Source: Brachionus manjavacas (lineage: Eukaryota > Rotifera > Eurotatoria > Ploima > Brachionidae). Taken from it: DNA of 64,000 bases. The stretch covers positions 7,750,001-7,814,000 of the forward strand of contig JAHQIY010000002.1 of NCBI GenBank assembly GCA_019054805.1, written 5' to 3'. Made by a program: the position numbers and the translations under genes. The notes under the pieces were generated by a model. It saw nothing but the letters and a program-made list of their open reading frames with translations, did not search any database and had not been told where the DNA came from. This document shows positions 22,201-51,240 of the stretch, piece after piece (the first letter of the stretch is position 1; every line of letters begins with the position of its first letter).

Positions 22201-23988
22201 ATATCAACTTCATTTTGTTTTTGTTGTGCTAATTTTCATATTACGGTAGATTTAATTTTAAATAACTTAAGTTTTTCACTTTTTTTTAATTTAATCTATA
22301 AAAAAAATCTAAAGATTAATCTAAATAATTGAAGAAAAAACAAAATTAAAATAAAATTTTTTTGTCTCAGAGATGGCATGATTAGCGGTGAAGAGATGAA
22401 AAATTATTTTTTGAGGGCCAACTACCATGCTTTAAAAACCGAATTCAAACACGACTTCCACGAGACCACATATTTTAAGCCCACCTTTTGCAACCACTGT
22501 GATGGATTTGTAAGCCTAAAAAAAATTCCAAAAAAAATTCTAAATTTTCCAAAAGCTCTGGGGTCTGATCAAACAGGGATGGAAATGCAAAGACTGCGGA
22601 ATAAATGCTCACAGAGTGTGCAAAGACCGAATTGTGATGGAGTGCCGATCGAAGCGAAACCTGGCGATGTATCGCCAAGCGTCTTCGACCGACTCGGCCC
22701 GCAACCGGTCGGTGTCGGCGCGTTCCTCGACCCGCGAGCAACCCAAAGTCAAACAAAAGGCCACACAGACCGACAACTTCGACGACCTGTTCATGTCAGA
22801 CGAGAGCGACTCGGATGCAGAGGACACATACAACAAACAAAGCAACAACACATCATTCACCAGCTCCACTCTAGTTGAGACCGAGATAACTGAAGTGAGC
22901 CCCGAGGAAAAAGGTGAAAAATCTACTGTTAATTCCGTGTCCCGGTCAAGCCGCTTGGCCTCCTATTCGGGCAAAAAATCTCCCAAACGCCGCAAATCAC
23001 TTCCTTCTCAATGCAGTCTAACTGTCGAACCCCATTCGGTAACTCTCATACCCAGAGGACCACTTATTTGTTCAAATAGTGAAAATTTGGAAAACTGGTT
23101 GCCGGACAAAATGCTCAATTCGGGTTTTAAAAGTGCTGGTAAAACAGGCGCTGACCAAACGAGCCTTAATGTCAACTTGAACAAAAATGTGTCACTAAGC
23201 CAAACAATTACAGACAAGATATCATCAAGCAAAATTTTGGACTCAACTTTGGGATGTAACTTGGTCGAAAAAGACTCTGATTTGCATTTGTCATCCAAAT
23301 TGGTCAACATTATGCCAGGTTCTAGTCAAACATCGAGCGTAGAGGATTCGTGTTCGATTGTGAACACCACTAAGCCTTTTACCAAGATATCCACCTTTGC
23401 CTCGATTCTGGACTACAATAAAAAGTTTGAGAAAAAAAATTCCGAGTCTTTTTTGACGAGTAAAATGTCCGCGGCGAGCTCAGTCAATAAGCCAGTCAAG
23501 TTGATACCAAGACCGATTGAAACAATCGCGTTCAAGCCCTCTAGACTCGAGCTGGTCAATGTCAAATCGATAAGCTGTGAGTCAAAAAATTTGAGCGTGT
23601 CCAACGACCACAATAGAATCGAGTCCGACTCGGACTTTAACTATTTTAATGAAAGCTATCAGTCGGACAATTTGTACAGCTCCAACGATGATGATAATGA
23701 GGTTTTTTTAAGGCTTAAAGAAATTGAGAGGGTAAGAATTTGAAAAAAAAATTTTTAAATTTTTTGATAAATTTTTATGATTTTTATTAGGAGAAAAGTT
23801 GTGAAATTGAGGTTGAGTGTGAGTTGAAAAAAATTGAATATGATAGCGAGTCGAATATTGATCAGCAGGAGGATTGCGTTGAAGTGAGGCATAAAAATGA
23901 GTCTATTGATGATGATATTGATGATAGCGAGTTTTTGGAAGACGGTCCAAATGGTGAACTAAAAAGTTTAAAATTTAAGCTTTTCTAA
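13202..23988 (+). CDS. RASGRP: RasGRP-type Ras guanyl-nucleotide exchange factor
   Basis: Ten exons join in frame: 13202-13583 (first ATG 13220), 13642-13819, 15073-15352, 15401-15574, 15621-15835, 15887-16145, 16194-16414, 22371-22509, 22556-23731, 23791-23988. From ATG 13220 the protein has 1,067 residues. Order: disordered N-terminus; REM domain (about 100-215, with [13 protein letters not shown]); CDC25 exchange domain (about 218-460, with [15 protein letters not shown]); EF-hand loops at about 532-543 ([12 protein letters not shown]) and 561-572 ([12 protein letters not shown]); and a complete C1 domain at 591-640 with the H-X12-C-X2-C-X13-C-X2-C-X4-H-X2-C-X7-C pattern. The family loads Ras/Rap with GTP at membranes, recruited by diacylglycerol through C1 and tuned by calcium. 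Both EF loops keep acidic positions. The ~427-residue serine-rich, acidic tail after C1 is longer than I expect for vertebrate members. An upstream first exon at 2672-3463 is frame-compatible. Neighbours are unrelated. Confidence 0.95.
13820..15072. other. RasGRP intron 2, nothing recognised
   Basis: A 1,253-nt intron between the two REM-domain exons. A mildly GC-richer patch at 14470-14610 may be a decayed repeat, but I cannot name it. Confidence 0.5.
16415..17860. other. 5' part of the 6-kb RasGRP intron, nothing recognised
   Basis: AT-rich sequence after the donor within the second EF-hand loop. No coding or repeat structure was identified before the first LINE tail at 17861. Confidence 0.5.
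17861..17915 (-). mobile_element. Solo LINE 3' tail (GGAGC hairpin family)
   Basis: The minus strand reads CTGAAGGAGCC-TTAG-CTCGATACAG and then A-rich TAAA/TAAATAA units. The same signature occurs at 19291-19370, 35441-35485 and 54331-54385, the last attached to a coding LINE. I infer a strongly 5'-truncated insertion. Confidence 0.6.
18619..18905 (+). mobile_element. Candidate tRNA-derived SINE
   Basis: Positions 18619-18691 fold roughly like a tRNA. A 7-nt acceptor strand ACCCGTA faces TAAGGGT with one mismatch. An A-box (TAGCCGAAAGG) and a perfect B-box-like T arm (GGTTCAAAACC) are spaced as in a pol III promoter, and the anticodon loop position would read CAT. The D and anticodon stems are poor, so it is not a functional tRNA. 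The following ~200 bp are clearly less AT-rich than the flanks and end near 18905, the layout of a tRNA-headed SINE. It lies in the RasGRP intron. No second copy in the window was recognised. Confidence 0.5.
19291..19370 (-). mobile_element. Solo LINE 3' tail with perfect GAGCTTAAGCTC palindrome
   Basis: On the minus strand: TTCTGAAGGAGCTTAAGCTC, then GGTACAG, then a long run of AATA/AAT units. The 12-bp palindrome is at 19346-19357. Same family signature as 17861-17915 and 54331-54385. Confidence 0.65.
19862..20932 (-). mobile_element. Jockey/CR1-type LINE, 3' half with reverse transcriptase core, frameshifted
   Basis: Reading from 20932 downward, the minus strand encodes a reverse transcriptase C-terminal half: [13 protein letters not shown], then FADDITVWF with the catalytic aspartates intact, then [14 protein letters not shown] and [10 protein letters not shown]. 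The frame breaks at a six-A run (20253-20258, a T run on the coding strand); removing one base would continue the frame to the stop near 20055. The 3' UTR ends at a GCC-TTTAA-GGC palindrome (19888-19898) and an A-rich TAAA tail at 19862. The 5' part (endonuclease and N-terminal RT) is missing. Located in the RasGRP intron in antisense. Confidence 0.85.
20933..22370. other. 3' part of the 6-kb RasGRP intron, nothing recognised
   Basis: AT-rich sequence leading to a good acceptor (TTTTTTTGTCTCAG) at 22370. A short local duplication of ATCTCTTCAATTTTATTCT occurs near 22024-22070. No gene seen. Confidence 0.5.
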
Positions 23989-29073: not shown

Positions 29074-32000
29074 TGATGACTTCGCTCTATAATGAGCCTG
29101 AAAGATTGGCCAAAAATTCCACCAACTTGTCGAATTTGACTAAGGGAATTGGTGAATTGTGCAACGAGGATAAAAAATATGACATCATAATTGAAGATAA
29201 TGTACAATCTAGCACTCTTTTACCAAACTATTAGCTTAATTTTACCTCAAGGAATATTACGGATCCATAGGACAAACAAAAGGCCTATCAAGACCCAAGC
29301 AAGAGATCAATTTGCCAAAAACTTTCACCACCAAGTACCATTAGGAAAAAAAGCAAAATATTGTTTTTATTTAGTTAATTAGAAAAGGTGCTCTCATTCT
29401 TTTTTCCGAGGATTTAGCAACCTACAAGAGAACAGATGATTTTTCACTCACAGCTAGATTCAATGAACAGACAAAAAGTGATTTTTTTGACGAAGAAATT
29501 CCGATCAAAACTGTCAATGAATTGCAACAAAATGTTTTGATTTATGGATTTAATAAAAATATGGTATTTTGCTTTTGATTAAAATTTTCTTTTTAACCTT
29601 TTTATGTCCAGAAATTACCTGAAATCGGCAAAACCGATTCCAAGACCACTTCGGACTCTAATTATCTGGACCTAATGTCCACCAAGAATTTGATATCAAA
29701 GTCCGAATTTGACTCTGCGGTAAAATATGACGAGCTCAGCGATTTGAAGAAAATAAATCGTGGATACTCGGCTCGTCGCTACTTGAGAAATTTGACCAAA
29801 AATTGGGATCAGGACCTTCTGGACACGTTTATATCGGACGGAAAGCTTAACGAAGAAACCATCTATGAGAAAAAGGCTACGAAAAGAAAGAGAGCGGAAG
29901 AGGATTTGACCATTTTGCCACAAGCGTATACCTTTGACCAAAACTGGGTCTCTACCGCCATGGACAAGCGAAATTTGAATTTTTTTAACGATTTCGGAAA
30001 TAGCAAATCGGAATCTTATCACTTTAAGATTAAGAAAAAATCAGCTGATAAAGACCCGATTACAATTTTTAAAAAGGATGAAGAAGAAATTTCCTATGAT
30101 TTGCTTGATCAAGACGATAAGCAAAAAGTTCTGTCAGATCTTTTATTTCACAGTGTAATGAACAACATTAATCAGCATCAAATAGTAGAATTTTAAATTA
30201 AAAAAATAATTGGGTTTTATTTATTTTTGTTTAGGGAGACCCCAACAATTCGAGTATTAGTTACACTCGAGAGGGAGTTAGAGCTCCCGAAAAAATTGAA
30301 ATTCATATAAAAAATTTTCCAGAGATAATATTTGATGTAAATTCAATTAAAATAATTTGGAAAATTTTAAATTTTAAAACCAAAAAAACAGAACTAAAAT
30401 TAAAAAACTCCCAAAAAGGTTAGAAAGACAAACTGAAGTTTATAATCATTTTTTGATGCTCAAAATAATCAAACCAAGTTTTAGTTATGAAATAAAATTT
30501 TATTTCTTAGAAGAATTAATGCAGAAATACTTTTGATAGGTAATTTTTTGCAAATATCAATTTTAAATTTAACAGAGTTGTTTGAAAGTCACAAGTCTCA
30601 AGTCAAGTCCGGACTTGTAATGACTTGGAGTTTAATTTGAGATTTTTAAAAAACTCTCAAATTTAACATAGTATGTTAAATACAAGAATATATCTATGTA
30701 TTTTTTCTATTAAGAAATAATAATTTATTTCATAATTTAAACTTGGTTTAATCATTTTGAGCACCAAAAATTGGTCATAAATAAAGACTTCAAGTCACCC
30801 TGTAAATTCAAAAACTGGTACATTCAGATTATCACATTAATCTACTGCATTTTTTTTTAAATGCACATGATTTTGTATTTGGTAGAAAAATAATTATTAA
30901 ATCATTTAATAATTATAAATTATAAGTTATAATTTATATTGCCACAACTTTTGTTTTAAAATTCAATTAGATTTAAGCAAATCCTAAGCCTTTGTATCAT
31001 TGAATTTTTGATTTAGAATTTTTTCCATAATTTGTTTTAAAATAAATTTCCAATGCACAAAACTTGGTTAATCACCATTCTTACTTTTTTTTTGGCTGCT
31101 ATATTTCTAATATCTAAATATTCGAATAGTTGGACCAAAAAATTTCCGATTCAAAGAATTAATGACTAATTTTCTGCAAAAAAAAGAGAGATAGAAAAAA
31201 ATCAAGTTTGAATTTTTTATTTTTGAAGAAAATCTTGAATTAAATTTTAAATGATATTAAATATTAATAGTAAAATTTATTGAAAAAATTTGACTAAAGT
31301 GGTGATGGCTAAACTTAATCAATTTAATCGATTATTTTGAGATGTTTTACAACAAAATTACTAGGACTTTTCATTAATCCAAAAAAATCAAAAAAATTTT
31401 ATTCAAGAATATCAAAATAAAATTTATTAAGTATGTTACAGAATCTTAATTTTTAATTTTAATTTAAAATTTTTCAAACCGGGTCAAAATTATTTAACCG
31501 GTTCTTTAAAATAGAAAATATTCACATAGCAAGATTAACAAAATTTCTTTTTAAAAAAGAAAAGAAAATTTAGATTAAAGAATTTCTTAATATCATGATA
31601 CAAATGATGTTGAAAATTTCAAACTATTAAGTTTTTTAAATTTTAGTTGTGTTATTTTTCGTTTTAAAATTCACAATTTCAAAAAAATCAAATTAAATTT
31701 TTTTTAGGATGCGAGTTCGGATGAAGCGTCCGACTCTGTCTTAGATAAATTAATTTCCGATTCGGACGGATTTCAGAAAGCAGAAAAATCCAGAACTAGT
31801 TTTTTTGACACTGCTCCAAAAAAAACTAACTTGGAGCCAATTTACATGTTTGGAAAGCATTCAGGCGCTCCATGGATCAAAAAACAGACCGAAAATAACC
31901 CTCCTAGTTCTTCAATAGCTGGCGACTTGAAATCCGAGAGCAAAATTTTAAAACCGAATAGTAAGATCCGAAAACAGCTGTCAAAAGATGAAGTTATAAA

Positions 32001-35000
32001 AGATGAGCCAAGTCCTCGATCAAGTGACGAGAAAGACACAGATATTCAGGAGGAGTCAAAAACAATTAGAACTAAATTTGATGCTGATTTAGTTCAGCAA
32101 GAATTCAAAACGATAGATGAAATGTTTGGTAATGTTTAAAAATTATTTTTATCAAGACCCTTTAAACTTTAAAACTGCAATAAGTAAATAATGTAAAAAA
32201 AATTTACAGTATTGACATTGTATTTGATTTAATTTATGTAAAATTTACGTAAAATATGGTTAATTCTTAACAGCCCCAAAAAAATAATTTTTTGTTTTTT
32301 TTTCTTGATTTTACAATATTTTAAGGAATTTTACGTAAATTTATGTAATTTATATGGTAAATTTTGGTCAAAAATGTAATTAACTAAAAAAAAAGGTCTA
32401 AATTTTATTTAAATAATGCCTAAACGATTGAATTTTTTTTTTTACAATAGCGCAAATATTAAAAAATACAATTTTAGTTGAGCAATTACAGTTAAAATTA
32501 CAATTATTTAAAATATGCTTAAATTAAATCTAAAACCATTATTTTTGTAAATAAATTATCTATCATAAATAACAGAAATTTACGTAAAATTTAGTAAAAC
32601 AATTTTAAATTAATTTTTTATTTAAGAAAAATTTTTTTTTTTGAAAAATAACAAAGAATCATTTTTTTGCGCTGTAAATGTTTGACCTTATTTAACGTAA
32701 ATTTTTGATATTTATACGAAAATTACCTTTTTATGTTGAATATCGAAATTATATTTAGCCTGAGCTTTACAACAAATAATTGTCGCTTATTATTAATTAC
32801 TGAATCTTGAAAGCTTAAAAGGTTTTTTTTATTTTCTAGATCTAAATTTTTGATTTTTTATTCAAAAATATGTAAGATTACATCAAAATGTAACGTAATT
32901 ATACGTATTTAGAGAAATGTCACTATAAAAAATGAGCACTGGTTTAGAAGATTAAAGTTCAATTTTAATGAAATGTCTTAAAAAATGAATAAATTTGATC
33001 CATGTTAAAAAAACATCCGACTTTAACATTGTTTAAAAAACATAGTTAATTCAATTTTCATTTTTTTAAGAATTTTATATAAGCTTTTACAATTGTTACT
33101 AGTTTTAAAATGTGTTCACTTTTTATTACATGTCACTAAAATAGAGAACTCTACTTTAAAGACATGTCACTCAATTCGGATGATTACGTTAATAAAAAGT
33201 TAAAAACGCACTAAGTAAAAAAATTTGCTTAGATCAACTTTTTAAAAATTTTTATTAACAATTTCTGTTTTATGCGTTGTTTTTTTAGTATAACTTTTTT
33301 TATTTGTTTTTAATCCTCATCCATAATATTTATTGTTAGCTCTCAGCATAAGCGACAATTTCACATAAAGCCTATACTTTTTTTATCACTAATTTAACTT
33401 CACATTTAAATATTTAATTACGATCTATTTACGATAAATTTTAAATTTATAGAACAACTTAATTAAGATAAAATACTTTTCCAATGTAAAATTACTTCGA
33501 AAAAAATTAAAATTTCTATACTTTAAAAAACTCTCTCTTTGTTGAGTTTTTTTCTTTATTTTTAGTCTCCATTTCTGACTAGCAATTGCTTGGGTGTCCA
33601 TTCTTTCAACAAACAACTATCGGTTTCACTTTCCAAATCAAGAATTTTTAAAATTTGGTGAAAAAATTATTATTTTGGAAATAATTTTTTTGTGAAAAGA
33701 GTTTTTTAAATCAAAAAAATTAAATTTATTTTAGTGATAAAAAAAGTAATTTTAGTTACAATTTTTAGTCTATAGATTAATGGATAGAAATAATTTCTTC
33801 GAACAATTCTTAAAAAAAATCTTTGAAATAATAAAAACAGTTCTTTGAAAATATAAAAATAAAAAATTAAATAACATAATATACAAAAAATTTTGATTTT
33901 TTTCAAAAAAATTAATTTATATTAGCCAACAAATTAATCTTTCATAGCTTGAAATGAGATAAAATTTATTTGAGCTTTTTTTAGAGATTGCCGCTAAGGA
34001 TTATGAGTTAATCGAAAAATCAAATGTATCTTTGCCAAAAGAAGATGAGCTTGACCAAGATGAAATGAAAGGTTTTTTTACTTAAATCTGAAGCAGCAAG
34101 CTTTACTTACATATTTTCTAAAGAAATGTATCTTGACGAAATTCGTTCTGTCCAGGAAGGCTACGCATTGGAAGATCTTTCTCATCTAAATCTTGCCGAA
34201 ATCCGAAATCTAAAATCGGCAAGTACTAATCGCAGTAATGCAAAAAATAAATCAATTCTCAAGACAGAAAAAGCACTGGATACAAAACCTCAAAAGAACG
34301 AGGTTAGATTCGAAAAATTGCCCGAAAAAAACAAAATGAAGCAGGAAAGCTTTAACTTATTTATCAATGAGAAGATTCAGAACAAAGATCCTAGTGAGAC
34401 AAAGCATAAACCAGACGTCAAACCACGCAATTCAAGCAATGATCTTGAAAAACACAGTGTAAGAGTCATAACTGTTAATAACAAAAAAAAAACTTACAAA
34501 GTTGATCCTAAGAGTAATCTTTTAAAATTTTTTTAATCATCTACTAATTTTAATAAATATTCTCTTAAGTTTTAAAGGACATGGAACATTTTGGGATAAA
34601 AAAATTTGAGAGATTTGATACCAAAAAATATGATAGACAAAGGGAAAAAAATTTTACGGACAATTCAACGAATTCTAAAGCTAGCTGGACCAACAAGGAG
34701 ACTAAGTTTGAGACTAGTAGACTAAAAGGAAGCAGTTTAAGTGACGAAAAATCGAATAACTTGAATGCAGAAGAATCATTTCATCCAAATTCAGCCGAAG
34801 ACAAAGTATCACAATTAGCCGAAACACTTAAAAGACCTTTAAAACCAAAAAGTAAAATTTAAAATAAAATTAAAAAAAAAAAAAAAATTTTTTTTGAAGT
34901 TGAATCTGTTCAGCAGCAAAATAAATTGCCTAAATTAAAATTTCTAAAATCGCAGGACTTTCAATCGGAAAGTCTGAACGATTATAAACAAAGTTCTTCC

Positions 35001-38000
35001 AATAGCGATTCTGCTTATTTTGATAGCGATTATGCCAAAGTAGAAATGCTCCGGCTTAAGCCAAAACAAAATGGAGGTTTTGCTCAAAATTTGCAGTCAG
35101 CTAGAAAAGAAGCAAAAGAATTCACGTCCCAGGTTCCTAACCAAACTGCCATCTACAACTTTGAAGAAAAAGAGCCATACAACCCAAATAAATATGATTA
35201 TTCAAATATTTTGTTCAAAGAAACAATTAATTCAAATAAAAAAGATAATAACTATTTGAAACCAACTTCTTTCAAGGGACTTCGTAGTGCGGAATGTAAA
35301 TTAAATTGAATTCCAAAATTTTAATTTAATTATTTTTTGAAAAGATCGGAATGAGATCAATACTCAACGAGATTCAAATGTGTCCACAAAGTCCAAGTCC
35401 AATGATAATTTAAAAAAAAGAAGTAAATTTAATTTATTTATTTTTTGTTTATCTGTTCCGGGCTAATGTTCCTTCAGAATATAAAAAAAAATTAATTAAG
35501 ATAAAATAAAAAAAATGATTAAAAGAAAAAAAAATACGGTGCTAGGGGTCTAAAGATACTTTCTGAGAGGTAAAACTAATTACTCCATAAACACTCATCA
35601 ACTGGCATATATTCTGAAAGACCACAAGATTTTACGTCAAAATATGAAGTCTTTTTGAAACAAAAATTTTTTGTTGGACTGGAATTTCGAAAAAAAAGCT
35701 GAAAATTAAGCCTTTTTTTTATTTTTTTTGTATCTAGTTCTGGGATTACCCCACAACCAAATATAAAATATATATATATATTCTGAAACAAAAAAAATTC
35801 TGAACAAATTGTAGGTTTTACTTTTTTTATTTTTAGAGTTATACGTCTAAAAAAATTAATTGAATTAATTTATTTAAAAAATTAAAATGCCAAAAAAAAC
35901 AAAAATTGAAAACTTTTATTGCCTCTTGTCGAGGCCGCAGGAACATCTTGAATGACGGTTGATTTAAGATACAGTCTTTGATACCAGTCAATACGCCCGA
36001 GCTCATTCAATGACTTAAAAAATTGAATTAAATCACCTCTTTTGCGCCTGAGATCGAGTGCGGTGATCGACATTTTATTTAAACGATTGTTGTATTTAAG
36101 ATTTCTATTAGTGTTAGGTATTTTCGAGGCTCTTCGTTGAACCTTCTCAAGCATGATCGACTGCGTTCCGAGCTAATGTTCCTTCCGACTGCGCAGATTT
36201 GGGTGGGTTCTACACCGAGATCGCAAATTCCAAGTAGGGTCTAACGTATGTCGTGTAAAGAGTGACCCACAGGTTTCGGTCTCGACATTCAAAAGTATTT
36301 TTAAGCATACCAAGAATTTTTGATGCTTTGTTTAAATTGAATACTTAATCAATATTTTGAAATTTTACAATACAAAATTTAACTTTATTTCGCCGTAATA
36401 TAATTTAATTAATATTAAAATACCATTTAAAGTGTTTATTTGAGCCATAATTTGGATGCCTTAATGTCGATTTTAAATTTGTCTTCAAAGTTTTCAAATA
36501 TAGATTTTAGAAGAAACAATTAAAGGTCAATTAGAGAAAAAAGGAGTTTTTTTAATTAAAATAATAAATTTCTTATGTTTAATTTAAAAAAATTAAAAAA
36601 ATCTAATTTTATCATTTCTATTAAGATTTTAATCAATTAAATTTTGATCATTTGATTATGATCATGGACTTCAAGTTGCCAAGATTTCCTATTTAATTAA
36701 GAATAAAAAAAGTAGCCTAGTCATCTGTCAAAAGAAAAGAGTATTGACAGTCTGTCTGTTTAATAGGATATTGATCACTTAAATATCCATTTAAATTTTC
36801 TTTAAAAGATCTTAAATGCAGAAACGATCTTATTCAATAAATAATAATTAAGCGATTATTTTTGAATAATTTATTTTGCTCTTTCGTTATTGAATCTGTA
36901 GCTTTGGACCACTCCATAGTATGGTGTCGGATAAAAATTTGATTTAGTGTTGGATAAATTCGGTAAATGATTTAAAAAATATTCAAAAAAATTTTGGCAC
37001 TATTTTTAAAAACTTAAATAAACCCATATCCATGTAAAATTAGAATAATTTTCATAAATTCGTGAATTCTGTATCTTATGGTATCTTAAGTGATTATAGT
37101 AAAATTTTGCAAAATTACGAAATTAACTATTAAATTAAAAATTAAATTACGATTTGGTAAAATCTTCTCATCAAATTTATTATTTATATTTATTTTATTT
37201 ATATTTATGCCTTTTTTATTTTCTAAATTTTTTTTTAATAAAATTCGAAGTCTTTTTTTTTTTCAAATAAAAACTTTTAAAATTTTGTTAAAGCGATCAA
37301 CTGGGCTGCCGGTGATTTTGATCCAAGGGAATTTTTTTTGCTATGGTCTTACGAATCGCCGCGTAAGTTCTAAAATATAATAAAGCCTTTGATAAAAAAA
37401 TTAATAAATAAAAATTAGCTGCACCCATTGTTGTTGATAGAACGTTTGCAGATACTTTAAGAAAGTATGCAGAATTCATAGCAAAAAATGTACTTAACAA
37501 CAAACACGCAGGTATGTGCTTATCAGATGACATAAAACGGGCATTGAGAGCCAACTTGGAGCGATTAAAACAGGCCATAGCTCAAGGAAAAATTAGCAGG
37601 GAAGTACTAGATGAGTACAAGAATATTTTTAAGCAAGTTTTGGCCAAAACAAGTAAATTTAAAAAAATTAAAAAATAACTAATAAAATTGGTCTGAATTT
37701 AGTGAAACGCAAGGACTTGGAAAATGTTGAAATTGATGATGAAATGCTAATGAAATTGTTAGAGCTTCCGGCTAGAGCATTCGAGGTTTACATTGATCCA
37801 ATAACTGGTAAAGAAAGTCTCAGAATTAAATCAGCCTTTTTGAGAGAACAAGCAAAAGTTATCAGAAGTATTTAAAATTTTTGTTTTCTAGTTACTTAAA
37901 AATTATTGTATGGGAATAGCAAAATTTGAAGTATTTTGTAATAATAGCCTGATAAATTCTATTTCTGTGCCACTGCAATCTTTTCAAAACTTGTAAAATC

Positions 38001-41000
38001 TCTCTGTCTACAATTCTAACCAAGTAAATATTTTCCAAAAAAATTTAATTTTTTCGGTCATGATTATGTTTATTTTTTTAACTTTCACACTATCTTAAGA
38101 TGGAATTTTTACCAAAATTTTAAAAAAAACTTTTAAAATTTTTCACCCTAATATAATTTCGAAAAAAAAATACAATGCAATATTTTATTCCCTTTGCATT
38201 GTAATTGTGTTATATATTTAATTTTTAATTTAGATTTTTCTATAAGTAGGTAACTTCATTTTTATTATGGTATATGTCTATTTTCTTTCTGCAATCATAT
38301 TATTATTTAAAAAAAATTAATGTGAAGAAAATATAATTTTTAAAAACGGTTTTGATTTTAAAATAACTAAAGAGAATTTTTTAATTTAGACTCTTTTTCC
38401 AAAAATTTATTTTTGAACAAAATTTATCATTGTTTATGATCAGTATTATTTGTTTAAAAAATTTAAGCTTCTATAGTTATTTTTGAAAAATGAAATCAAA
38501 ACTTGAATTCAAAATTTTTAAAGCTATGAATTAAGTAATTCCTTTATTAAATTTAAATAAAAATACCTGAATTTTAACTTGTTATTTCTCCTTAAAAAAT
38601 AAAAAATAATTTAATAAGAATATAAATTAAGAGGATTTGCAGATCCTTTTTTAATATTTAGCATTTTTCAGAGAGATTTAATCAAATGCCATTCAAAAGT
38701 CATTCTTATCTTTTAAATCTAATAAAAATGAAAAATAAAGTTTTGGCATTTAAAATGAAACAAGAAACATCATAACAAGTGAATTTTACTGAATATTTAT
38801 TTTTATTACAAAAATTTACCTTTTTTTATAGTTTATAACATTATTTTGCGAAAAATTATGCAATAAAATGTAATATTTCAAGTTGCGAAATAAAATTATA
38901 AAACTAAAAAAATTTAATAAAAATCAAATTTTTTTCGAAAAATTGTACTTTTTTGGTCGTCAGCATTTTTTCTAAGTTTGACTTGAAATAACGTAATTAT
39001 ACACCATTTTACGTAATCTTACATTTTTTGATGTAAAATTATGTAAAATGATGTAATATTACCCGTTCTGTGGTAATATTACATAATGGAGTAATCCTAC
39101 AGTGTAAAGTAAAACACTGTAGGATTTACTTTACACTGTAGCCAAAAATTGCCAATAATTAGGATTTACTTTAACCAAAAATTACCTCATACCTTGATAT
39201 GACTGAAATTTTTAAACCTTAACATAAATCAGTGGCTTCAAAAACTTTGAATCCATATAAATCTACTCAAAATTATTTTTTATCTAATTATTTCTTTAAG
39301 CTATTGTGACAGAAAAACCTTTAAGCAAAGACGATTTTGATGAGTACATTGATCCAAAAACTGGTGAGAAAAAGCTAAAATTGCGACTAGATGTGGCCAA
39401 AAAATTGGGAATTCCAGAAGATGCCGAAGACTTAATTGAATTTTACACAGATGAAAATGGAAATCAAGTAATGCGATTGAAAGATGGTGCTAGGAATGTT
39501 ACCATTGGTGACACGATTTACGAACTAGTTACAGACGCTGATGGTAAGCAAGTTCTTAAAATGACCACTAAACAAAAAGTTGGTGAAGAAAAGTTAGATG
39601 ATATTCTGCGCCTAGCTGACAATATGAGCCCTGAGGCCAAAAATAGGTACCTTCAAGATCTTTTGAAGACCGGTGGCGGCAAAATGAATGATGAAATACG
39701 CAAAAAATTGATTGACGAAATGATAAAAAATGCCGAGAACTTGACCGGCGAGGCTAAGGAAAACTTTCTTAAAGATCTAATGGTCAATCTGGTAAATGAA
39801 CTGCCTCCAAACGTTGCCAAAAAAGTTCTTAGCGATATCATGAAGTCTACGGATGGCATTGACTCGGAACTAAAACAGCAAATGATCAAGAACTTGATTC
39901 ATGATTTGAATGAACTCCCGGAAGATTTAAAAGAGCAAGCTTTGATGGAACTGATGAAGAACATGGACAATTTGTCGTCTGAGGCCAAGAATAATCTTTT
40001 GCAGGATATTTTGACTAAAGTTGAAGAGACTGGTGGAATCAAGTATTCTTCGCAGGAATTGAGAAATCAAGTTTTGAAAGAAATGCTCAAAAATTCTCAA
40101 AATCTGGATGAAGAAACTAGAAATAAAATTTTGCACCAAGTTTTGGACAAAATTACGGCCGAAGATGGTGGTGACGTACCACCTAATGTTTTAGAAGAGC
40201 TTGTTAAACAAATGTACAATTTGCCAGACTCAATAAAAACTAAGGTATTGAGTGAAGTGACCAAAAATTTGGAGCAAGGAAATTTGGACAGTCATGTTTT
40301 GTCCGAGTTGCTCAAACATTCAGAAGACTTGGCGCCGGAAATTTTGGCGGCCATTATCAAAAACACCGACAAAATGGAGAGCAATACTCTGAAAGAATTG
40401 GTAAGGCATTTGGACAAAATTCCAGATGAATTTAAGCAAGAAATAATCGGGAAAATGGTCAATAATTTGGACGAGATGGACTCGGGAGTCAAACAAGAAC
40501 TTCTAAAGGAATTGATGGCAAATCCAGATTTGATACAAGATGAAAAATTGAGAGAAAAAGTATTGAAAGACATTTTAAGCAATTTAAAAACAGATGATGT
40601 CATTAAAGAGACAGAGAACATGACTGCCGAGGAAAAAAATAAGTACTTACAAGATCTGCTAAAGCACTCTGACAATTTGAGCGAGGAAACTAGGCAGCAA
40701 ATAATTGGACTTTTGATAAAAAATGCCGAAAATTTAGACCAAGAGACAAAAAATAATTTTCTCAAAGATCTCATTGAGAATATTAAGGGTAAATTTTTAT
40801 TTTTAAAGATGACTTAATTTTAAATTAGTCGAACTCCTTGCATAAGAATCCTTTAAATCTTTTGGGACAAAAAATAATTTCTAAATGAATTTTACATTTG
40901 TTTTCTATTTTTGATTGATGGTGATTTCAAGCTCGATATTTTCATTAAAAAATAACAAAATCATATTTTCCTAATGCATTTATATAAAAATTTTAGATTA

Positions 41001-44000
41001 AGATTACATTCTGTTCCTGATAAGTTAAATATCTTTAAAATTACTCAAATCCTTAAGAACCAGTCAAAAAAGAATAGTGACCTTAATAATATTAGGCCGA
41101 TCTCGGTATCTAACTGTTTAGCTCAAATGTTTGAAAAATTAATACTTTATTCATGTTCAGATTTGCTCAGAACAAGTTGTAATCAATTTGGATTTAAAAG
41201 AAAAACTTGTTGCAATCATGCAACATTTGTTCTCAAGAATGCTATTCTAAAATATAAGAAAAATTATTCTGGATGCAAAGTAGTATCCCTAGACGCAGAA
41301 AAGGCATTTAATAAAGTCTGGAGAGATGGACTCTTCTTAAAACTTATATCAAGGATGGACATTAGCTTTTGGATAATACTAAAAAAATACTATGGGAGTT
41401 GTCTATATTAGTGATTTACTATAATCTAATGCTAAATGAATCTAATGCCAAAAATTTGATGTCAATTACTTTAATGCCAAATCGTTTAATAAGAAAAAAA
41501 TGTCAAGAATAAAATAAGGAATCTTTTGTTCTTTCTTAAATTATGAAAATAATGCCAATTTTATATTTAGGAAATTAATGTCTTCTCTCTAAACTAAGAA
41601 ATTATTGCCGAATAAAAATTAAAGAAACTAGTGCTAATGAAAGCAATGACAAAATTTTTTTGATTTAATTCCTTGATTTAATTAAAATTTTTTGATTAAT
41701 AATAATCAAGAAACAGAAACCACTTATATACATTAGAGTATTGGCTTGATTCTGAAGGAGCAATTGATCACGATAAAGACACAACTATTGAACAATCAAG
41801 CGAAGAACAAGAATATGGAAACCATGATCAAAAGATTGTGTATGCTCAACTATGAGCCATTCATGATCTCCCGGATTTAACTTGGCAATCAAACCAAATG
41901 AATGTTCAGGCTGAAAATCGCCAAACTAGATCTACTCCAAGCACAATTTCTAGATACGGTAAACGAAGATCCAGAGGAGCCGCATTTCAACTATATTCGT
42001 TCTTTGATGGACCATGAAACATGAAAATGCCATATCAAACGCAAAGAAAGCTGAAGAAGAGCGTAAAAAACAATTAACAGATGAATACACAGCTGCTATT
42101 ACCTCGAAGGATATGGAAGATGAAGTAAACTCATTTGTAGATCCAGTGGGAGCGAATTTCGAAAAAAGATCGTGACGCAATGTTTATCCTGCGCAAAAAG
42201 GTTGCTGAAAAAGTGGAAGTTCAATTTGCATCTAAGTTTCTAAAAAAATACGGCGAGACTCAGAGTTATCGATAGAATTTCTTAAATGTTTTTTTTTCTT
42301 ATCATTGATTTTTTTTGTCATTATTTTAATTGGCAGTAGATTACTTTATCATTAGATTTTATTGATACTATTTTCTTATTTTCTAAATTAGCATTATTTT
42401 CTTAAAATATTTATTGACTATAAAATATTTTGGCATTATTTTTTTTGACATTAAATCTTTGACATTAGAATCATTTGACATTAATTTACAGATTACCATA
42501 TTAGTGACTTAAAAAAGTCTGATTTATTTAAAATTAACTGTGGTGTTAAACAAGGTGGAGTAATATCATCAAATTTATTTAATGTCTTCATTAATGAATT
42601 AATTCTAGAATGTCTGTCCAAAAATATAGGTGCTCTATTTAATAATGTAAATATAAGTGTAATTGTCTATGCATATGATATACTAATGATAAGCCCAGTA
42701 GATTCTCATCTACAAGAACTTCTTGATATTTGCTCTAAATATGGAATCGAGTGGAAAATAAAATTCAACCCCAAGAAATCTTCAATAGTTGAATTTGGTC
42801 CACAAATCTTTAGGAAAACTTTTTATCTGGGAAACACCACCTTGGACACAGTAAATAGAATTAAATATTTAGGAGTTGATATCCCAAGTGACTAAGATTA
42901 CCAGAGTGTTGCAGTCAGTAAATTTATAAAAGTACAACAAGCTTTGTTTTCTTTTTCACTTACTTAGGTTTAAAAAAAGAGAAAATTTCTCCGTTCCTGC
43001 AAGCGTTTATCTATAAAACCTACTGTTTGTCTCAATTCGCATACGGTCCTGAGACTTAAACTTGATAACCTGTATTCCTTTGCTAAACTTTGCTTACTGG
43101 TATCAATTAAATGGGTCTATAAAAATTATTAATTGAAAGATTAAATTTTATTTTAAAGAAAAAGATAAATAATAACTAACTTTTGTTTTAAAATTTATTA
43201 GCTTTTCGTGGCTTACCTCGGCCTTTTTATTATATTTTGATTTTTTTCATGTTTCTGTTTTTAATTGCTTGTTATTAAAAAATATTGTCTTTTGACGCTA
43301 ATGTCTTTGTCGATTTCATATATTTCCATCCTCAACCATGACGTGCAATTCAAAGGTAAACTAAAGTCAGAATTGAGTTAATTGGAAAAATTTTAAGTCA
43401 ATGTCTAATTTGACTTTTTAAATTTTTCTAGTAAAATTTGTGACATTCTTTCAAACTATTTTCAACCGCTAACTGTAGCGAGGGAGTAAAAGAACTTAAT
43501 TGACTTAAATGTCTTGCTCATTAATTTTCCCTAGTTTCTCTACTCCTTCACATTCATCTTCATTAGAGTCGAATAAAACTAATTTCTTCTTGATCAAACT
43601 CATCATCACGGACATCACGAACAATTAAAAAAGAATATTTTAACATATTCTGATTTTAGACCTTAATTTAAAAATAATTTCTGATTTTGTTTTTTAAGTT
43701 AATGTTATTGAAAATTGAAAGCTAAAATGTTGAAAACATCAAAATTGATCTCTAGATCACAAAGAAATTTATTAAAAAATCAAAAAAAAAATCAAAGGTT
43801 TTTTCTCCACGTTTAGATTTGGCCATTAATTCAATTCGATTATTGATGTTTCTTATATTATAATTCAAATTTCTTGAGTCATTTTTATTTAGTCTTTCTT
43901 TCAGATTTAAGGGAGAATTGTAATAAAAAAGACATTTGAAAAAAAAAGTTAGCTTCCTTTCAAAAATTCTATGTAAAAATGAACCATTCTTTTCTAAAAC

Positions 44001-47000
44001 GTAGTTTATTTCACTAAAACTTCAAGCTTTAAATTAAGTTAGATATCTAATAACTTTTTTTTAATTTATAGATTTCTAAATCGAAAATAATTTTCTATTT
44101 TAAAAGATCATGCACAAAGCTTTAAATTAGCTTATATCTATTAGTAAAATTTTTGCTGTAAAATTTAAAATTTTCAAAGATGTTTCAACGTCTTTATCAG
44201 AGATTCTAAATGTTGCATCATCTGCTAACATTTTTATATTTAAATCTTTAAATAAAAATGGTATAAATCATCTACAAAAATAAGAAAAAAGATTGGACCC
44301 AAAACTGGTCCCTGCGTTACACCTAATTTTTATATTAGGGGTTTAGACATTTCACTGTCATATATATAACTATCTGATATTTTCAAAGGAGTTTGAAACA
44401 GGGCCTAAAGAAGAATCGTCAAAACATAATGAAAAAGTTTCAAAAGTATTAAATTTGGATCTGTAACATCAAAGGCTTTTTTAAAGTAATAAAAAATAAA
44501 CAAATTGTAAGTTTCTTTTCTTTGACTTTATTGATTTCACTTATATACTCATGAATGACTGTTTCACAAGAATGTCCAGATCCAGAACCATGTTTCCATT
44601 AAAAAAATTTTATTCGATTCAAAATAGTAAGATATCTGTTTTCCAAGTAGCTTTTCGAATGTTTTTGCTTTTTGTGAAAGAACTGATATCCCACGATAAT
44701 TGTTTATATCTGATCTATCATCTTTGTTTCTAAATTAAGCAAGTTTTCAATCTTCTTCTATAAAAAGAAAGTCTTCTTTAGCAACTATACTTCTCCTACT
44801 CAAGTCTCTTCTAACTATACCGACTAAAATCATAGTTAAAACCAGAGTTGTTTAAAAGTCACAAGTCTCAAGTCAAGTCAAAGTCAAGACTTCTTTTTTT
44901 TTTTTTTCAAAAGTCCCACCAAAGACTTTAAAATTTTTTTTTCAAAAAAAAGTCCAAGTCAAGACTTTTTTTTTTTTTTCAAAAGTCCCACCAAAGACTT
45001 TAAAATTTTTTTTTCAAAAAAAAGTCCAAGTCAAAAAAAAGCGGAACATCTCTGTTGATCCAATTTTAAAATTGAAAAAAAAATCATAAATTTTATTTTC
45101 TTTAATTTATTTTTGAAAATGGATTAAAAAAACATCCTTGAAAGATTTGAATTAATCTGTTCTTTGAAATGGAATGGTTCAAAGATAAATATTTGAGACT
45201 TTGCTTACTTTTTTTAGCAAAGTTATAAAAAACTTTATAATTTTTTTATTATTCTTTGTGTTCATCTGAAATTTTTTTGAATTTTAAATCTTTTTAGTAT
45301 TACAGCAACAAAAGTAACTTGTGTTTAAGTAATGAAATCAAAAAGTGCCAATTGCTCCCTTCTTACTCCACCAGATATTATAAAATTAAATCTAGTCTAG
45401 TAATTGAAAAATATAGGCCCTTGGCAGGAAGAAGAAAATTCTATTAACAAGGAAAGAACCATTCCATGTAGCTCAAGTCAACTAACTTTGATTGAAATTT
45501 TCTGAGATGATTGAAAGTTTAAAAAAAAAAAAAGAGCAAAAAAATTTTATTTAAAAAAAAAAAAAAAAAAAAAGTCCTGAATTGGACTTTTTTTTTGAAA
45601 AAAAAAATTTAAAAGTCCTGACTTGGACTTTGAAAAAAAAAAAAAACAAAAAAGTCCTGACTTGGACTTTTTTTTTGATGACTTAGACTTTTTTTTGGGA
45701 CTTTTAAACAACTCTGGTTAAAACTGCTATTTTACAGACTTTTAGGCAACTTTTTAATAGAATTAAATGATGATTTTTAAAGTAAATTACCAAAAAAAAT
45801 TATTAAAGAATTAGGGTAATCTAAAAAAGAAATGTTTTTGTTAAAAATAGTTTGTAACTCTTTATAAACTATTTTACCGTTTCTTATTAAAAAGTAAAAA
45901 ATCAAATCTTTTAAGAATTGCCACCTGACTTGGCAAATAAAGTCTTGGGCGACTTGATGAAGAATACAAACTTGCTGGATGCTGACTTGAAGCAAAAAAT
46001 GATAGAGAACTTGTTAAATAATTTGGACGACTTGCCAGATGAACTCAAACAAAAAGCTTTGAATGAAATTGCTAGAAATTTGGACAATCTATCCGCTGAA
46101 AAAAAAGAGGAAATTTTCAAAACAATTTTGAACAATTTGGATTCACTGCCGGACGAGCTAAAACAAGAAACATTCAAGACTTTGATTGACAACATGAACA
46201 ATTTAAGCTCAGATCAAAAAAACACTCTGCTGCAGAACATTCTGGACAAAGTAGAGGATGACAATTCGGACAATGAATTCAAAAAAAATCTCAAAAACGA
46301 AGTGCTTACAGAAATTGTTAAAAATTCACAAAATCTAGACGAGGAACAAAGAACAAAAATTCTCAAAGACGTGATGCAAAAGTTGAAGCCCGGTGAAACA
46401 GTGCCTGATTCGATCATGAACGAGCTGGTGAAACAAATTGATGACCTGCCTGATGAAATAAAATCACATGTTCTAAATGAATTGAAAAATTCAATCGAAA
46501 GTGGAAATATTAGTGGAACAGTTTTGGACCAAATGATGAAAAATCCCAAAAATCTGCCAAAGGATTTGTTGCAAAAAGTAGTGGAAAATATAAAAAATCT
46601 TGCACCAGACGCTTTGCAGAAATTTGTTGAAAATTTGGACTCTCTACCCGAGGATCTTAAAAGCAAAGCTGTCCAGGACATGCTCAACAATATGGACAGC
46701 ATAGATCCCAATGTCAAAAAGGATCTTTTGAAAGAACTGGTCTCAAAACCCGGCCTGATTAAGGACAAAAAAATGATGGAAAAGGCCATCATGGACTTGG
46801 TCGACAATTTAGAGTACATGCCTGAGAATGTTAAAAAAGACATGCTCAAAGACTTGGCTAAGAATATCAACAACTTAAGCGGAAATGTGAAGGAAAAAAT
46901 TATAAAAGAAGTTTTCAAGAATTTAACCAACTCGAATGATGAAACAAGAGAGGAAATAATGAAGCAATTAATGAAGAAAATGGGCGCTGATGAACTAGAG

Positions 47001-47802
47001 AAATGGCTGGAAAATAGTGATTTGCCAGAAGAATTTAAAGCTAAAGTTCTTGCCGATATAGAAAAAATTCGAAGTAATAACTTGGATTAAATGTTTGATT
47101 TGATTAAAAAAAAAAATTTAATATTCCTAGATGAAGGTGAGGATTTGCTGAATAGCGATGATGAAAAAGAATTAGAAGGTTTGAGTGGCGAGGAACGAGC
47201 GGTCATGAAACGACGTCTAATTGAGAAACGCAAACAGATAAAACACGAAGAAAAATCTGAAAAAGAGGAAATAAAACGAGATTTAGACTGGTTACAAAAG
47301 AATAAGGATAATGTCTTAAAAAATTTGGTTCTTGATTCGGAAAATCCTGAAATAAATTGTAATTTTTGAAAATTGTTTAAAAATTTTTTTGTACTAAATG
47401 GAAATAATCTAGTGAATGAAGAACAAATTGATTTTATTCGAGCATTCCACAAATTGTCCGAAGAGGAAAAGACAAAATTGTTGGAAAATATGAGCGAAGA
47501 GGAAAGAAAAGTTTTGACCAAGTTAACCGAGCAATATCATGAGTAATTTTTGATTAAATTTTTTTAATTCGATTTCTATTTTTTGCTCAAGTCTTCGACA
47601 AAAAGAACTGCAAGAAGCGTTAAGTGAGGCAAAAAATTTGGCTATTCAAAAGTTAAGAGAAAGGCTAGCACTTCAAAAACGCATGGAATACCTTAACTTT
47701 CTTAAACTCGAGTCTAAAATGTTCGACTTTGCGCAGCAGATATCTCGGGCTTTTGTTTTTTCTTATTTTGAAATGTTACAATGGCTAGAAATTTCGTTTT
47801 AA
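29074..47802 (+). CDS. KIAA2012: KIAA2012-like (DUF4670) protein with a duplicated helical-repeat array
   Basis: Nineteen exons join in frame: 29074-29201 (ATG 29076), 29252-29334, 29383-29563, 29612-30184, 30235-30336, 31708-32128, 33985-34071, 34124-34513, 34570-34851, 34900-35295, 35345-35422, 37294-37362, 37419-37652, 37703-37867, 39301-40788, 45916-47073, 47131-47358, 47413-47542, 47592-47802. The CDS is 6,402 nt, 2,133 residues. N-terminal LPKTFTTKKGALILFSE (63-79), RGYSARRYL (180-188) and C-terminal ISRAFVFSYFEMLQW (2114-2128) match the conserved ends of vertebrate KIAA2012 as I remember it; no alignment was run. Between them lie a charged disordered region, four YxDxxG hairpin-like repeats (about 1028-1160), about 40 helical repeats of 15-22 residues (1163-1944) and a charged coiled coil. 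Human KIAA2012 is shorter, about 1,200 residues, by memory. Introns 6-18 are all phase 1 except the last. Function unknown; a structural role is inference. The intron 6-7 and 8-9 junctions are the weakest. Confidence 0.8.
30574..30790 (+). mobile_element. hAT MITE fragment (AAGTC-rich family)
   Basis: Begins CAGAGTTGTTTGAAAGTC and continues with AAGTCTCAAGTCAAGTCC, near-identical to the left arm of the complete MITE at 44843-45716. The right arm is not clear; the region around 30780-30800 has degenerate AAGACTTCAAGTC. It lies in intron 5 of the KIAA2012-like gene. Confidence 0.6.
32210..32940. repeat. TTACGTAA-rich island in intron 6
   Basis: Repeats of TTTACGTAAA, AATTTACGTAA and TTATGTAATTTA over about 700 bp, similar in wording to 6040-6950 and 57430-57510. 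No terminal inverted repeats or coding frames were found. Confidence 0.45.
35441..35485 (-). mobile_element. Solo LINE 3' tail (GGAGC hairpin family variant)
   Basis: On the minus strand CTGAAGGAACATTAGCCCGG and then AACAGATAAACAAAAAATAA. The core (35456-35475) reappears with one mismatch as a 20-nt insertion at 36166-36185. Located in intron 11 of the KIAA2012-like gene. Confidence 0.55.
35882..36350 (-). mobile_element. CR1-like LINE C-terminal fragment with a 20-nt insertion
   Basis: The minus strand encodes MLEKVQRRASKIPNTNRNL followed by YNNRLNKMSITALDLRRKRG and DLIQFFKSLNELGRIDWYQR, the CR1-type reverse transcriptase C-terminus. It is nearly identical to 61800-62150, so the two copies are recent relatives. 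Relative to that copy it carries an extra 28 nt at 36166-36193, consisting of a LINE-tail word and a repeated CGACTGCG. Lies antisense in intron 11 of the KIAA2012-like gene. Confidence 0.8.
38990..39180. repeat. TTACGTAA-type island plus 17-bp hairpin
   Basis: ACGTAATTATAC, TTTTACGTAATC and ATGTAAAATG repeats are followed by a perfect 17-bp inverted repeat (39097-39113 with 39125-39141; arm CTACAGTGTAAAGTAAA) and a second AGGATTTACTTTA word at 39161. Sits 120 bp upstream of the acceptor of the first helical-repeat exon. Confidence 0.55.
39598..40788 (+). repeat. Helical repeat array, first part (about 20 units)
   Basis: Inside exon 15 of the KIAA2012-like gene. Units average 19 residues with the loose pattern L-P/S-x-E-h-K-x-x-h-L-x-x-h-h-K-N-h-D-N, where h is hydrophobic; 15-residue variants occur. 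Examples are LPEDLKEQALMELMKNMDN and LSEETRQQIIGLLIKNAEN. Each unit predicts one amphipathic helix with a polar turn, so the whole could form a superhelix or solenoid. Units 1-17 resemble, in the same order, units 18-20 here plus the first part of exon 16. Confidence 0.85.
40974..43060 (+). mobile_element. LINE reverse transcriptase split by a DNA transposon
   Basis: The left part encodes NNIRPISVSNCLAQMFEKLI and CKVVSLDAEKAFNKVWRDGL, RT motifs with the first catalytic Asp. The right part (from 42508) encodes CGVKQGGVISSNLFNVFINE, YAYDILM where a YADD box is expected, and KFNPKKSSIVEFG and IKYLGVDIPSD. The two halves are separated by a 1,083-bp insertion with a 10-bp target duplication. The YADD to YAYD change and later stops show decay. 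Lies sense in intron 15 of the KIAA2012-like gene. Confidence 0.8.
41415..42497. mobile_element. Non-autonomous DNA transposon nested in the LINE (Mutator-like?)
   Basis: Flanked by the direct repeat ATATTAGTGA (41405-41414 and 42498-42507). Its ends are imperfect inverted repeats of about 40 bp built from sub-repeats of TAATG(C/T)CAAA, which continue inward on both sides. A 9-10 bp duplication and sub-repeated termini suggest a Mutator-like element. The middle (41730-42276) carries a decayed + strand coding region (for example KKAEEERKKQLTDEYTAA, then DEVNSFVDP, then RKKVAEKVEVQFASKFLKK) broken by stops and a frameshift; I do not recognise it. Confidence 0.7.
43780..44560 (-). mobile_element. 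Decayed LINE reverse transcriptase fragment
   Basis: Minus strand traces of RT: FKKAFDVTDPNLILL near 44480, TQGPVLGPI near 44300, LADDATFRISDKDVETSL near 44200 with the catalytic DD, and a C-terminal NYNIRNINNRIELMAKS near 43850. Many stops and frameshifts. In intron 15 of the KIAA2012-like gene. Confidence 0.65.
44843..45716. mobile_element. hAT MITE with perfect 8-bp target duplication
   Basis: The 874-bp element starts CAGAGTTGTTTAAAAGTC and ends with its exact reverse complement. It is flanked on both sides by GTTAAAAC (44835-44842 and 45717-45724). The CAGxGTTG-type terminus and 8-bp duplication are diagnostic of the hAT superfamily. Subterminal regions hold many copies of AAGTC/GACTT, including two near-identical ~70-bp direct repeats on the left and AAGTCCTGACTTGGACTTT words on the right. 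No transposase ORF. Related fragments lie at 26514 and 30574. Confidence 0.9.
45916..46990 (+). repeat. Helical repeat array, second part (about 20 units)
   Basis: Inside exon 16 of the KIAA2012-like gene. The order of units parallels exon 15: LPPDLANKVLGDLMKN here against LPPNVAKKVLSDIMKS there, VPDSIMNELVKQIDD against VPPNVLEELVKQMYN, and IDPNVKKDLLKELVSKPGLI against MDSGVKQELLKELMANPDLI. Two extra units (around LSAEKKEEIFKTILNNLDS) appear inserted in this copy. Confidence 0.85.
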
Positions 47803-48382: not shown

Positions 48383-51240
48383 CTAAATAAATGATTGAAT
48401 TAATTCTTTTAAAATATCTATGTTTGATTTTAGTATGCTGCGAGTAATAATCATATAATCACTCATATTTTCACTTTGTTTTTTGCAAATAATTCCACAA
48501 ATGCTGAAAAATTTTTCAATGAAAGCACTCGATGCATTAATATTTGACCAAAAACTTATATTCGATTTAATCAGGGCAAGCACGTCCTGTTTTGAAAGAA
48601 TAGCGGTTAAATATTTTATTTCCATGTCAAGCTCAATCTAAATTTAAAATTTTTCTGATTCATTGTTTTTAACACTAATGGCTTCATCGTCCTTTAAAAG
48701 CTCGTCCAGAAAGTCTCCATGATTATCAGATTGATTCTCATTTATAATTTAAGGATTCAATTCATTAGACTCATTTAGTTTTTCCTCATAGAAAAATTTC
48801 AAATAAACACATTTCAATGATTTTAGCCCATCAGCTACGACGTTTCTACAAAATAATTTGTTAATCCATAAATTCATTTTCCCGATGTTCAATACAGTTT
48901 CTGCCTTTAATTGATCTTTATATTTTGTTTTGATATTGAATAAAATATTCTTACCTTATAAAATTCAGATTCAATTTCAGATTTAAACTTATGCTTAAAG
49001 CAAACTATTAGGATTGTAGCAAGTCTTTCATCCTATTCCTCTAATTCCATTGTTTCCCAGCTATAAATAATTCTAAATAAACAAGGGATCAATGCAGATA
49101 TAGGGGAATTGTTATTTTGGAAACTAATGGTAAATCTATAAGCCGGTTTGAGAATTTGAAGGTAAGTTTCTATCTGCTTCAAACTAAGTGGGCATCTAAG
49201 ATTACTATCTTCGTCAATAAAAAGACCTTTATCGTATGCCCTTTTAACTGATTCCAGTTAAAGATACGTAGATGACCAGCGTGTTTTATTTTCAATACGT
49301 AGCCTTGATTTTTTAGTTGAAAAAACTTTGTATAGTTGGATTGATTTTTTTACATCATTGTTTGAGCTATTTAAGATTTAAAGGTTTTTCACCAATTGCA
49401 TGCATAGAGATTGCGTGGCGTACTGCTAAATTTGCTTTATGGCATGCACAAGAATATCTTGGAATGTTCTTATCCCCTATTTTAATATCAAAATCAGAAA
49501 CGATTTCTCCTTTCGAGGAATCGTACTCTCTAACTTCTTCTAAATCAAGTTCTTGAACGTTTTTATAGATGCGCATTCGATTTTTTTCAGAATGTTTTAG
49601 AGCGTTTGTGAAAGTTAAAGTTTTTAGGTCTTCAAAAATTTCTCTAACTTCATTTTGAGTCGAAATAATTTCTGTTTTACCTTCATTTTCTTCCAGTTCT
49701 CCACTTCCTGGTTCACAAAGAACCTGAATTGATTCAGCTTCCTGATAAATATTTTCGTCAATGAAAAAATCATCTCCTAATAAAAAATAAACTAAGTCAA
49801 TTTGTAAAATTTACTTTTATTTTTTTCATCTTCTAAATATTCATCTATTTTAAATTTTTCAATAGATAAGTCGATCTGGGTGAAAAAATATAAGATAATA
49901 CAAGACTACTGCCTTCATCACACACAATAGCTATTAAAACAGTAAAATATTCCAATTTAATTAATAAAATTTTTGTAATCACAATTACAATGAATTTTTT
50001 TTGTTAAAACTTAATCTACTCAATAGATTTAGCAGGGCTTTCCTTATGTTCTCTGCTGAATGTGATCCAGACATTGGAGTATACCCAATAACAAAAAATT
50101 CTTTCACAAAATGAGGATTCGAAGTTATTGCTGCGCATGCCATAAAATCGATGTTCTAATTGTTTGTCCATAAACCAATTCCTAGACAAATTGTGCTAGA
50201 GAGTTTTAATTTTTCATTAAGTTTTGTATAGACTTTATTTAAAACATTTGGAAGTGTGAAGCATCTCAAGTGTTAATGACTTGGAATTTCAATTGAGGGA
50301 TCTAAAATGTTCCTGAAGTAAGGGATTTTGAGTTGACTAAAACTCTCATTTGTAACTATAAACCATTTAACCAGCTCAAAAAGCTTATCATCTAGCCTTT
50401 TAACACTTTTATTCATCTGTTAATCATATCTAACAAACCATTCATATAAGATGTCATAATGTTTGTATTTTAAGTGCTGATTGCACACTCTAGCAAATGG
50501 AGCTTATAACTCTGAATTCCAAAGTTTGCAATGAAAAATTAGATTTTTGTCGGAAGGCATCGATGTTAACCGAAAAGGACGGAGAAAAAAATGTAAAAAT
50601 TGGTGTCTTCCCGAATATTGAATTTCCAATGTAGATAAATTTCTGGGGAAAAACCTTCTCTTTTGACAATTCAATCATCTTCTCAACACTTTAATCATTT
50701 TCAACATCTGTATCTCCAGATAAATGAATTTTATTTCTTGACATTTTTCCTTTGTTTTAATTTTTCGATTCTTAAAAAATTTCTTTTCCTATATTAAATA
50801 TCCTAAATTAGGATTTATTTCTTCTTCAATTGTTTCTAATTCACTCTCAACATCACTTTCGACCTCATCAGTGTATTCAGCAGTATCTTTCGAACATAAA
50901 GGGACAATGCTTTTAGGTTTTTCATTTGAAATCTTCTTTCTTGATTGTGGAGTTTCAATAATGTATGACTCAGGTCGATTTCTATTATGACTCTCTCTGT
51001 TGGATCTTAGTCTTACTTGTGTACTCGACTTTTTTTTTAATTTTAATACATCGTCAGAATTTGCGTTAAATGGAATAAAAAAATTACTAAATTCTGTTAA
51101 GGATTTCACAAGTAAAGAAGAAATGTCGAGGCAAAAAAAAAATAAGCGGTTTTCTAATACACTAATTTGGCTACAGAATTATGCTTTTTGTGTTACTCCC
51201 TGTCTGAGATCTTGTAAAAAATAATATTTCTCTATATTTT
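48383..51240 (-). pseudogene. hAT-family transposase relic
   Basis: Minus-strand segments in the right order for a hAT transposase: an N-terminal acidic region (50789-51109); ELVKWFIVTNESFSQLK near 50330; LDPSIEIPSHxHLRCFTLP; LSSTICLGIGLWTNxQ; MSGSHSAENIRKALLNLL near 50050; IPRYSCACHKANLAVRHA (49400-49460), the RCxCH-type segment; and the C-terminal dimerisation region at 48383-48625 (SFWSNINASSAFIEKFF). Stops and frameshifts separate the segments, so it is not functional. hAT transposases cut and paste elements with 8-bp duplications, as seen for the MITE at 44843; whether this relic belonged to the same family is unknown. No clear inverted termini were found around it. Confidence 0.8.

Follow-up and report, generated by a model that had tools for sequence, protein, structure and literature searches.

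Does a long array of helical repeats belong to the gene between whose conserved ends it lies, and how was it built there? This question is raised by a 64,000-nucleotide stretch of the Brachionus manjavacas genome (assembly GCA_019054805.1, contig JAHQIY010000002.1, positions 7,750,001 to 7,814,000), referred to below as the window, in which the original prediction had placed a KIAA2012-like gene with a helical block duplicated in tandem. The answer to which we give slightly better than even confidence is that the gene is a KIAA2012-like paralogue in which a gained, block-duplicated solenoid replaces a charged stretch and works as a ciliary scaffold.

The gene was modeled as a chain of 18 exons at 29076-47802 on the forward strand, with one open frame, GT-AG at each intron, and a single terminal stop, encoding 2,100 residues in place of the 19 exons and 2,133 residues given originally; exons 15 and 16 of that earlier count are exons 14 and 15 here. 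Spliced in phase, these two array exons (39301-40788 and 45916-47073) encode 881 amino acids with no stops. An alternative model with six exons within the 5.1-kb intron between them contained a stop and was rejected, those six exons being false. How the model begins is uncertain: the ATG sits just after an acceptor-like TTTAG, so an exon further 5′ may be missing.

Helical units and the duplicated block

Using an iteratively built 19-position profile, the array was parsed into 42 units from 39624 to 47072 with the consensus LPDELKQKLLKELLKNLDN, in agreement with the approximately 40 helical units of about 19 residues proposed before. Nine of the 42 scored below 10 and were poorly parsed, with shorter helices or longer linkers at these places. 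The similarity of units was averaged by distance for the 27 of 42 retained by a filter on length and first letter, and the mean was 30.6 at a distance of two units (n = 17), compared with 21.4 at one (n = 19), 20.6 at three (n = 17), and 24.1 at four (n = 16). This two-unit periodicity points to hairpins that repeat every 38 residues.

Block A (39618-40589) and block B (40614-46814 across the intron) were aligned over 320 residues, of which 148 were identical (46%), with a single gap of 38 residues corresponding to two units found only in block B (46086-46199). Taken together, the two-unit periodicity and the two-unit indel fit a hairpin organisation. The unit-block score of A against B was 718, about 12.5 standard deviations above 2,000 shuffles of the unit order (mean 336, standard deviation 30.5, maximum 490). 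Therefore, similarity among the units does not by itself explain the match. The maximum of 300 residue shuffles was 149, and rotation of block A by whole units lowered the score progressively, reaching 373 at about half a turn. An independent protein search of the organism's own genome returned the same pairing, with exon 15 matching exon 14 at E 2.4e-43 and 2.2e-15. The order-preserving tandem duplication that had been proposed is thus borne out by both the alignment and the unit-order control, and the three sequence pairs quoted for it all lie in register. The units recur in the same order, as described, but the layout had to be revised in that block B has two more units than A and the last five units fall outside the register. 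A third block in this five-unit tail was rejected, since its score of 120 against a shuffle mean of 122 gave no register.

Among 12 well-parsed unit pairs picked by the analyst, in-register identity was 0.48 at the outer positions and 0.60 at the core positions, which were likewise analyst-assigned, compared with 0.24 and 0.26 off register. Codon differences between the blocks numbered 145, 63, and 195 of 320 at positions 1, 2, and 3, as expected of a constrained protein, and the array has been kept as protein. Since the blocks share only 46% identity, their duplication is not recent. The two extra units of block B best matched units 23-24 (score 96; next 80) when pairs overlapping or touching the insert were omitted, which suggests a local hairpin duplication.

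The 5.1-kb intron breaks block B after its third unit. Because block A is continuous at the corresponding point, a gain or a loss of the intron must have followed the block duplication. Two reverse-transcriptase-like open reading frame (ORF) fragments, labelled by eye, lie within this intron at 40956-42895. For the piece at 42485-42895, there were 41 matching places among the matches listed in the genome, itself included, and the best other copies were about 89% identical over nearly the whole length. The same intron also holds tandem arrays of short AAGTCC / GACTT-type units with periods of 20-72 at 44875-45703.

An array-free paralogue in the same genome

The genome (114 Mb, 61 contigs) was searched with parts of the window gene, and the best candidates of each search were scored. 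With the N-terminal exon as the query, one other gene was found, on contig C20 (E 2.8e-15), and the last exon gave a match on that contig and strand, 7 kb further downstream (E 9.6e-9), the RAFVFSYF-type C-terminal segment being common to both genes in this within-genome comparison. Among the candidates scored, the N-terminal domain had no match besides these two genes. The paralogue was modeled at 1007360-1014994 with 10 exons and 1,501 residues, and one short stretch of its last exon may be unspliced intron. The features of the window gene, with their matches to the paralogue, are as follows.

29076..30336, + strand: exons 1-5, N-terminal family domain (LPKTFTTKKGALILFSEDLA ... GYSARRYLRNL); residues 17-244 match paralogue residues 7-210, 28% identity, E 2e-19
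31708..35422, + strand: exons 6-11, polar linker, probably disordered; GT-AG chain in one open frame
37419..37867, + strand: exons 12-13, coding for the middle domain of the family, with its end close to AFEVYIDPITGKESLRIK; residues 901-1020 match paralogue residues 548-672, 32% identity, E 1e-16
39301..40788, + strand: exon 14, with a second YIDPKTG-type stretch followed by block A and the three units with which block B starts
39618..40589, + strand: block A (units 1-18) in its aligned extent, sharing 148 identical residues out of 320 with block B
40614..40788, + strand: units 19-21 of block B, on the 5′ side of the intron
40789..45915, + strand: 5.1-kb intron dividing block B after unit 21
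45916..47073, + strand: exon 15, in which block B continues with units 22-37 up to 46814, followed by the tail (units 38-42)
46086..46199, + strand: 38 residues (two units) exclusive to block B, nearest to units 23-24
47131..47802, + strand: exons 16-18, charged segment, conserved C-terminus (ISRAFVFSYFEMLQWLEI), and stop codon; residues 2040-2098 match paralogue residues 1414-1472, 36% identity, E 2e-8

The three matches are collinear, and the middle one stops just before the array exon (residue 1030). The paralogue is thus like the window gene in its N-terminal, middle, and C-terminal domains and their order, but between the middle domain and the C-terminus it begins lysine-rich, at a net +7 to +14 per 120 residues, and turns Arg/Glu-rich further on. 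No array unit was detected in it, the best score with a hidden Markov model (HMM) of the unit being −3.8, compared with up to 50.6 in the window array; one stray score of 6.4 lies outside the array, at residues 293-308 of the window protein. Among the best genomic candidates scored, there was no other match to block A (E ≤ 10) or to exon 15 (E ≤ 0.01). The alignments indicate that the ends and the middle domain belong together in both genes, with the array at the position of the paralogue's charged stretch. That an array-free paralogue has the same domains in the same order argues for flanking exons that form one gene, into which the array is built. The predicted duplicated block between conserved ends is thus partly supported, although the array replaces a charged stretch and is not a bare insertion.

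The introns from exon 6/7 through exon 16/17 of the window gene are all in phase 1, so that exons could be added or removed there with the frame intact, and exons 14, 15, and 16 are symmetric (phase 1-1). If exons 14-15 were a separate nested gene and the joined model an artefact, introns of 1.4 and 5.1 kb preceding and splitting the array exons would be in keeping with it. However, exons 14 and 15 are entered and left through open phase-1 junctions, the YIDPxTG motif stands once at the end of exon 13 and once at the start of exon 14, and in the paralogue the counterparts of the middle and C-terminal domains are joined across the equivalent point. Such a nested gene is thus very unlikely.

Directly ahead of the array, at 37760-37830 and 39330-39570, there are repeated YIDPxTG / YTDENGNQV / VTDADGKQV hairpin-like motifs, which form low-confidence strands in the predicted structure (AF2). 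The paralogue aligns to the first copy alone, without the YIDPxTG letters, and a genome search with both copies as the query gave no further gene (next match E 4.47). In the polar linker, the four stretches scanned (exons 6, 8, 9, and 10) matched no Pfam family at E ≤ 1.

Predicted fold and comparison with HEAT/ARM proteins

The structure prediction recommended with the original prediction gave an alpha-solenoid in the AF2 models of the array, with HEAT/ARM-like structure neighbours, and supports stacked hairpins. The array is therefore described here as a predicted acidic alpha-solenoid of stacked helical hairpins. By E-value, the top Foldseek rows were designed repeat proteins, and the TM-scores were low: whole superhelices do not overlay. 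Compared with HEAT/ARM solenoids such as the PP2A-A subunit and importin-alpha, the array differs by its near-uniform units of about 19 residues and shows about 10% identity.

The fold neighbours and the symmetric exons 14, 15, and 16 would suit an array taken from a known HEAT/ARM protein and captured by exon shuffling, and HEAT proteins do occur among the insignificant sequence matches (CAND1 at E 0.65-0.95; the HEAT-type Cnd1 at E 0.008, below its Pfam cut-off). By contrast, the genome searches gave no donor among the candidates scored, and no HEAT/ARM Pfam model was over its cut-off among 12 families for exon 14 and 25 shown of 42 for exon 15. Sequence searches of the PDB gave nothing significant for exon 15 (best E 0.33) or the array profile (best E 0.32), no match at E ≤ 1 for exon 14, and none at E ≤ 10 for the N-terminal exon. 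We consider such a capture improbable.

The Pfam and NCBIfam scans of the array returned scattered families with no common theme. DUF3106 was over its cut-off on exon 15 (27.6 vs. 24.3 bits), yet it is a function-unknown family and covered only one 81-residue stretch, so it was rejected. Also discarded were Rtt106_N, the next best (E 1.2e-5, just under the cut-off), and MgtE_N, presumably a helical superhelix, which stayed below its cut-off on exon 14 (E 0.25) and on the stretch 47418-47540 (E 0.0049). No stray relatives were found in prokaryote and viral collections, which are silent on animals.

Possible kinship with KIAA2012 and possible role

The N-terminus of the window gene was compared with a provisional human KIAA2012 fragment, and 49 of 191 columns were identical (26%, E 1e-18 for this one comparison), which serves as a lead only; the N-terminal motifs LPKTF.T.KGALIL.SE.LA and GYSA.RYLR agree with that fragment. 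DUF4670 (PF15709), which we take to be linked to KIAA2012, had no match in this genome, but none in 14 control genomes either, and none in the window-gene stretches scanned (9 + 5) or the paralogue pieces. Human KIAA2012 is presumably shorter, with a coiled-coil middle, and is not known to carry a duplicated solenoid like that of the window protein. Of the charged, coiled-coil-type middle, which we assume to be typical of the family, the paralogue has a charged stretch, and in the window gene the array stands in its place. Because the array takes the place of the charged middle, the window gene is filed on its sequence as KIAA2012-like and not as KIAA2012. The titles and abstract openings of the KIAA2012 literature held nothing on its architecture in invertebrates, a literature search for DUF4670 gave no papers, and the passages covered of a paper on spiralian ciliary-band genes (PMC7441323) contained no "KIAA".

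A gain of the array in the window paralogue is favoured over a loss from the other, on the ground that the provisional human sequence lies nearer to the array-free paralogue, although the data do not fix the direction. An array ancestral to the family would make the window gene the old architecture, and the C20 paralogue, perhaps along with vertebrates, would have lost it. The non-recent duplication, with blocks only 46% identical, would agree with this. The provisional human N-terminus is, however, closer to the array-free paralogue (87.8 vs. 55.8 bits for the window gene), and the paralogue has no detectable unit (best unit-HMM score −3.8), both points being weak on direction. We regard an ancestral array as unlikely.

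PMC12772120 places human KIAA2012 in the motile cilia of five tissues, without a known function, and for this reason a ciliary scaffold is inferred. The window gene is one of two KIAA2012-like paralogues in the genome, and its stretch from the middle domain to the C-terminus is a predicted acidic alpha-solenoid of about 40 helices, or about 20 hairpins of ~38 residues, at the position of a charged, non-repetitive stretch in the paralogue. The array would have grown via unit or hairpin duplication followed by divergence, a block of about 18 helices would later have been duplicated in tandem, and either an extra hairpin would have arisen in block B or one would have been lost from block A. The conserved ends would likely hold the protein where members of the family normally reside, probably in the motile cilium. 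The solenoid would then act as an extended scaffold with slight elasticity, each block contributing one of two nearly equivalent faces for binding.

It is conceivable, at a very low probability, that a charged coiled-coil-like middle was exchanged for an acidic solenoid and that its duplication gave this lineage an axonemal ruler or spring of two periods. This idea arises because a block of ~18 helices (about 9 hairpins) would measure roughly 8-10 nm by general figures for HEAT rise, near one tubulin dimer. Two related versions in one genome, which differ in having either a charged middle or a large foldable solenoid, provide a natural swap by which the role of the shared ends can be told apart from that of the middle. 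The locus also offers a large solenoid built by block duplication, in which no curated HEAT/ARM profile recognised the array here.

Upstream of the gene, ORFs at 13196-23985 (+ strand), which we take to be a RasGRP-like gene, matched C1 above the cut-off (E 6.5e-7) and RasGEF weakly, short of the cut-off (E 0.0077). Downstream, an ORF at 49367-49810 (− strand) contains a CHKANLAVRHAI stretch and presumably resembles hAT transposase remnants.
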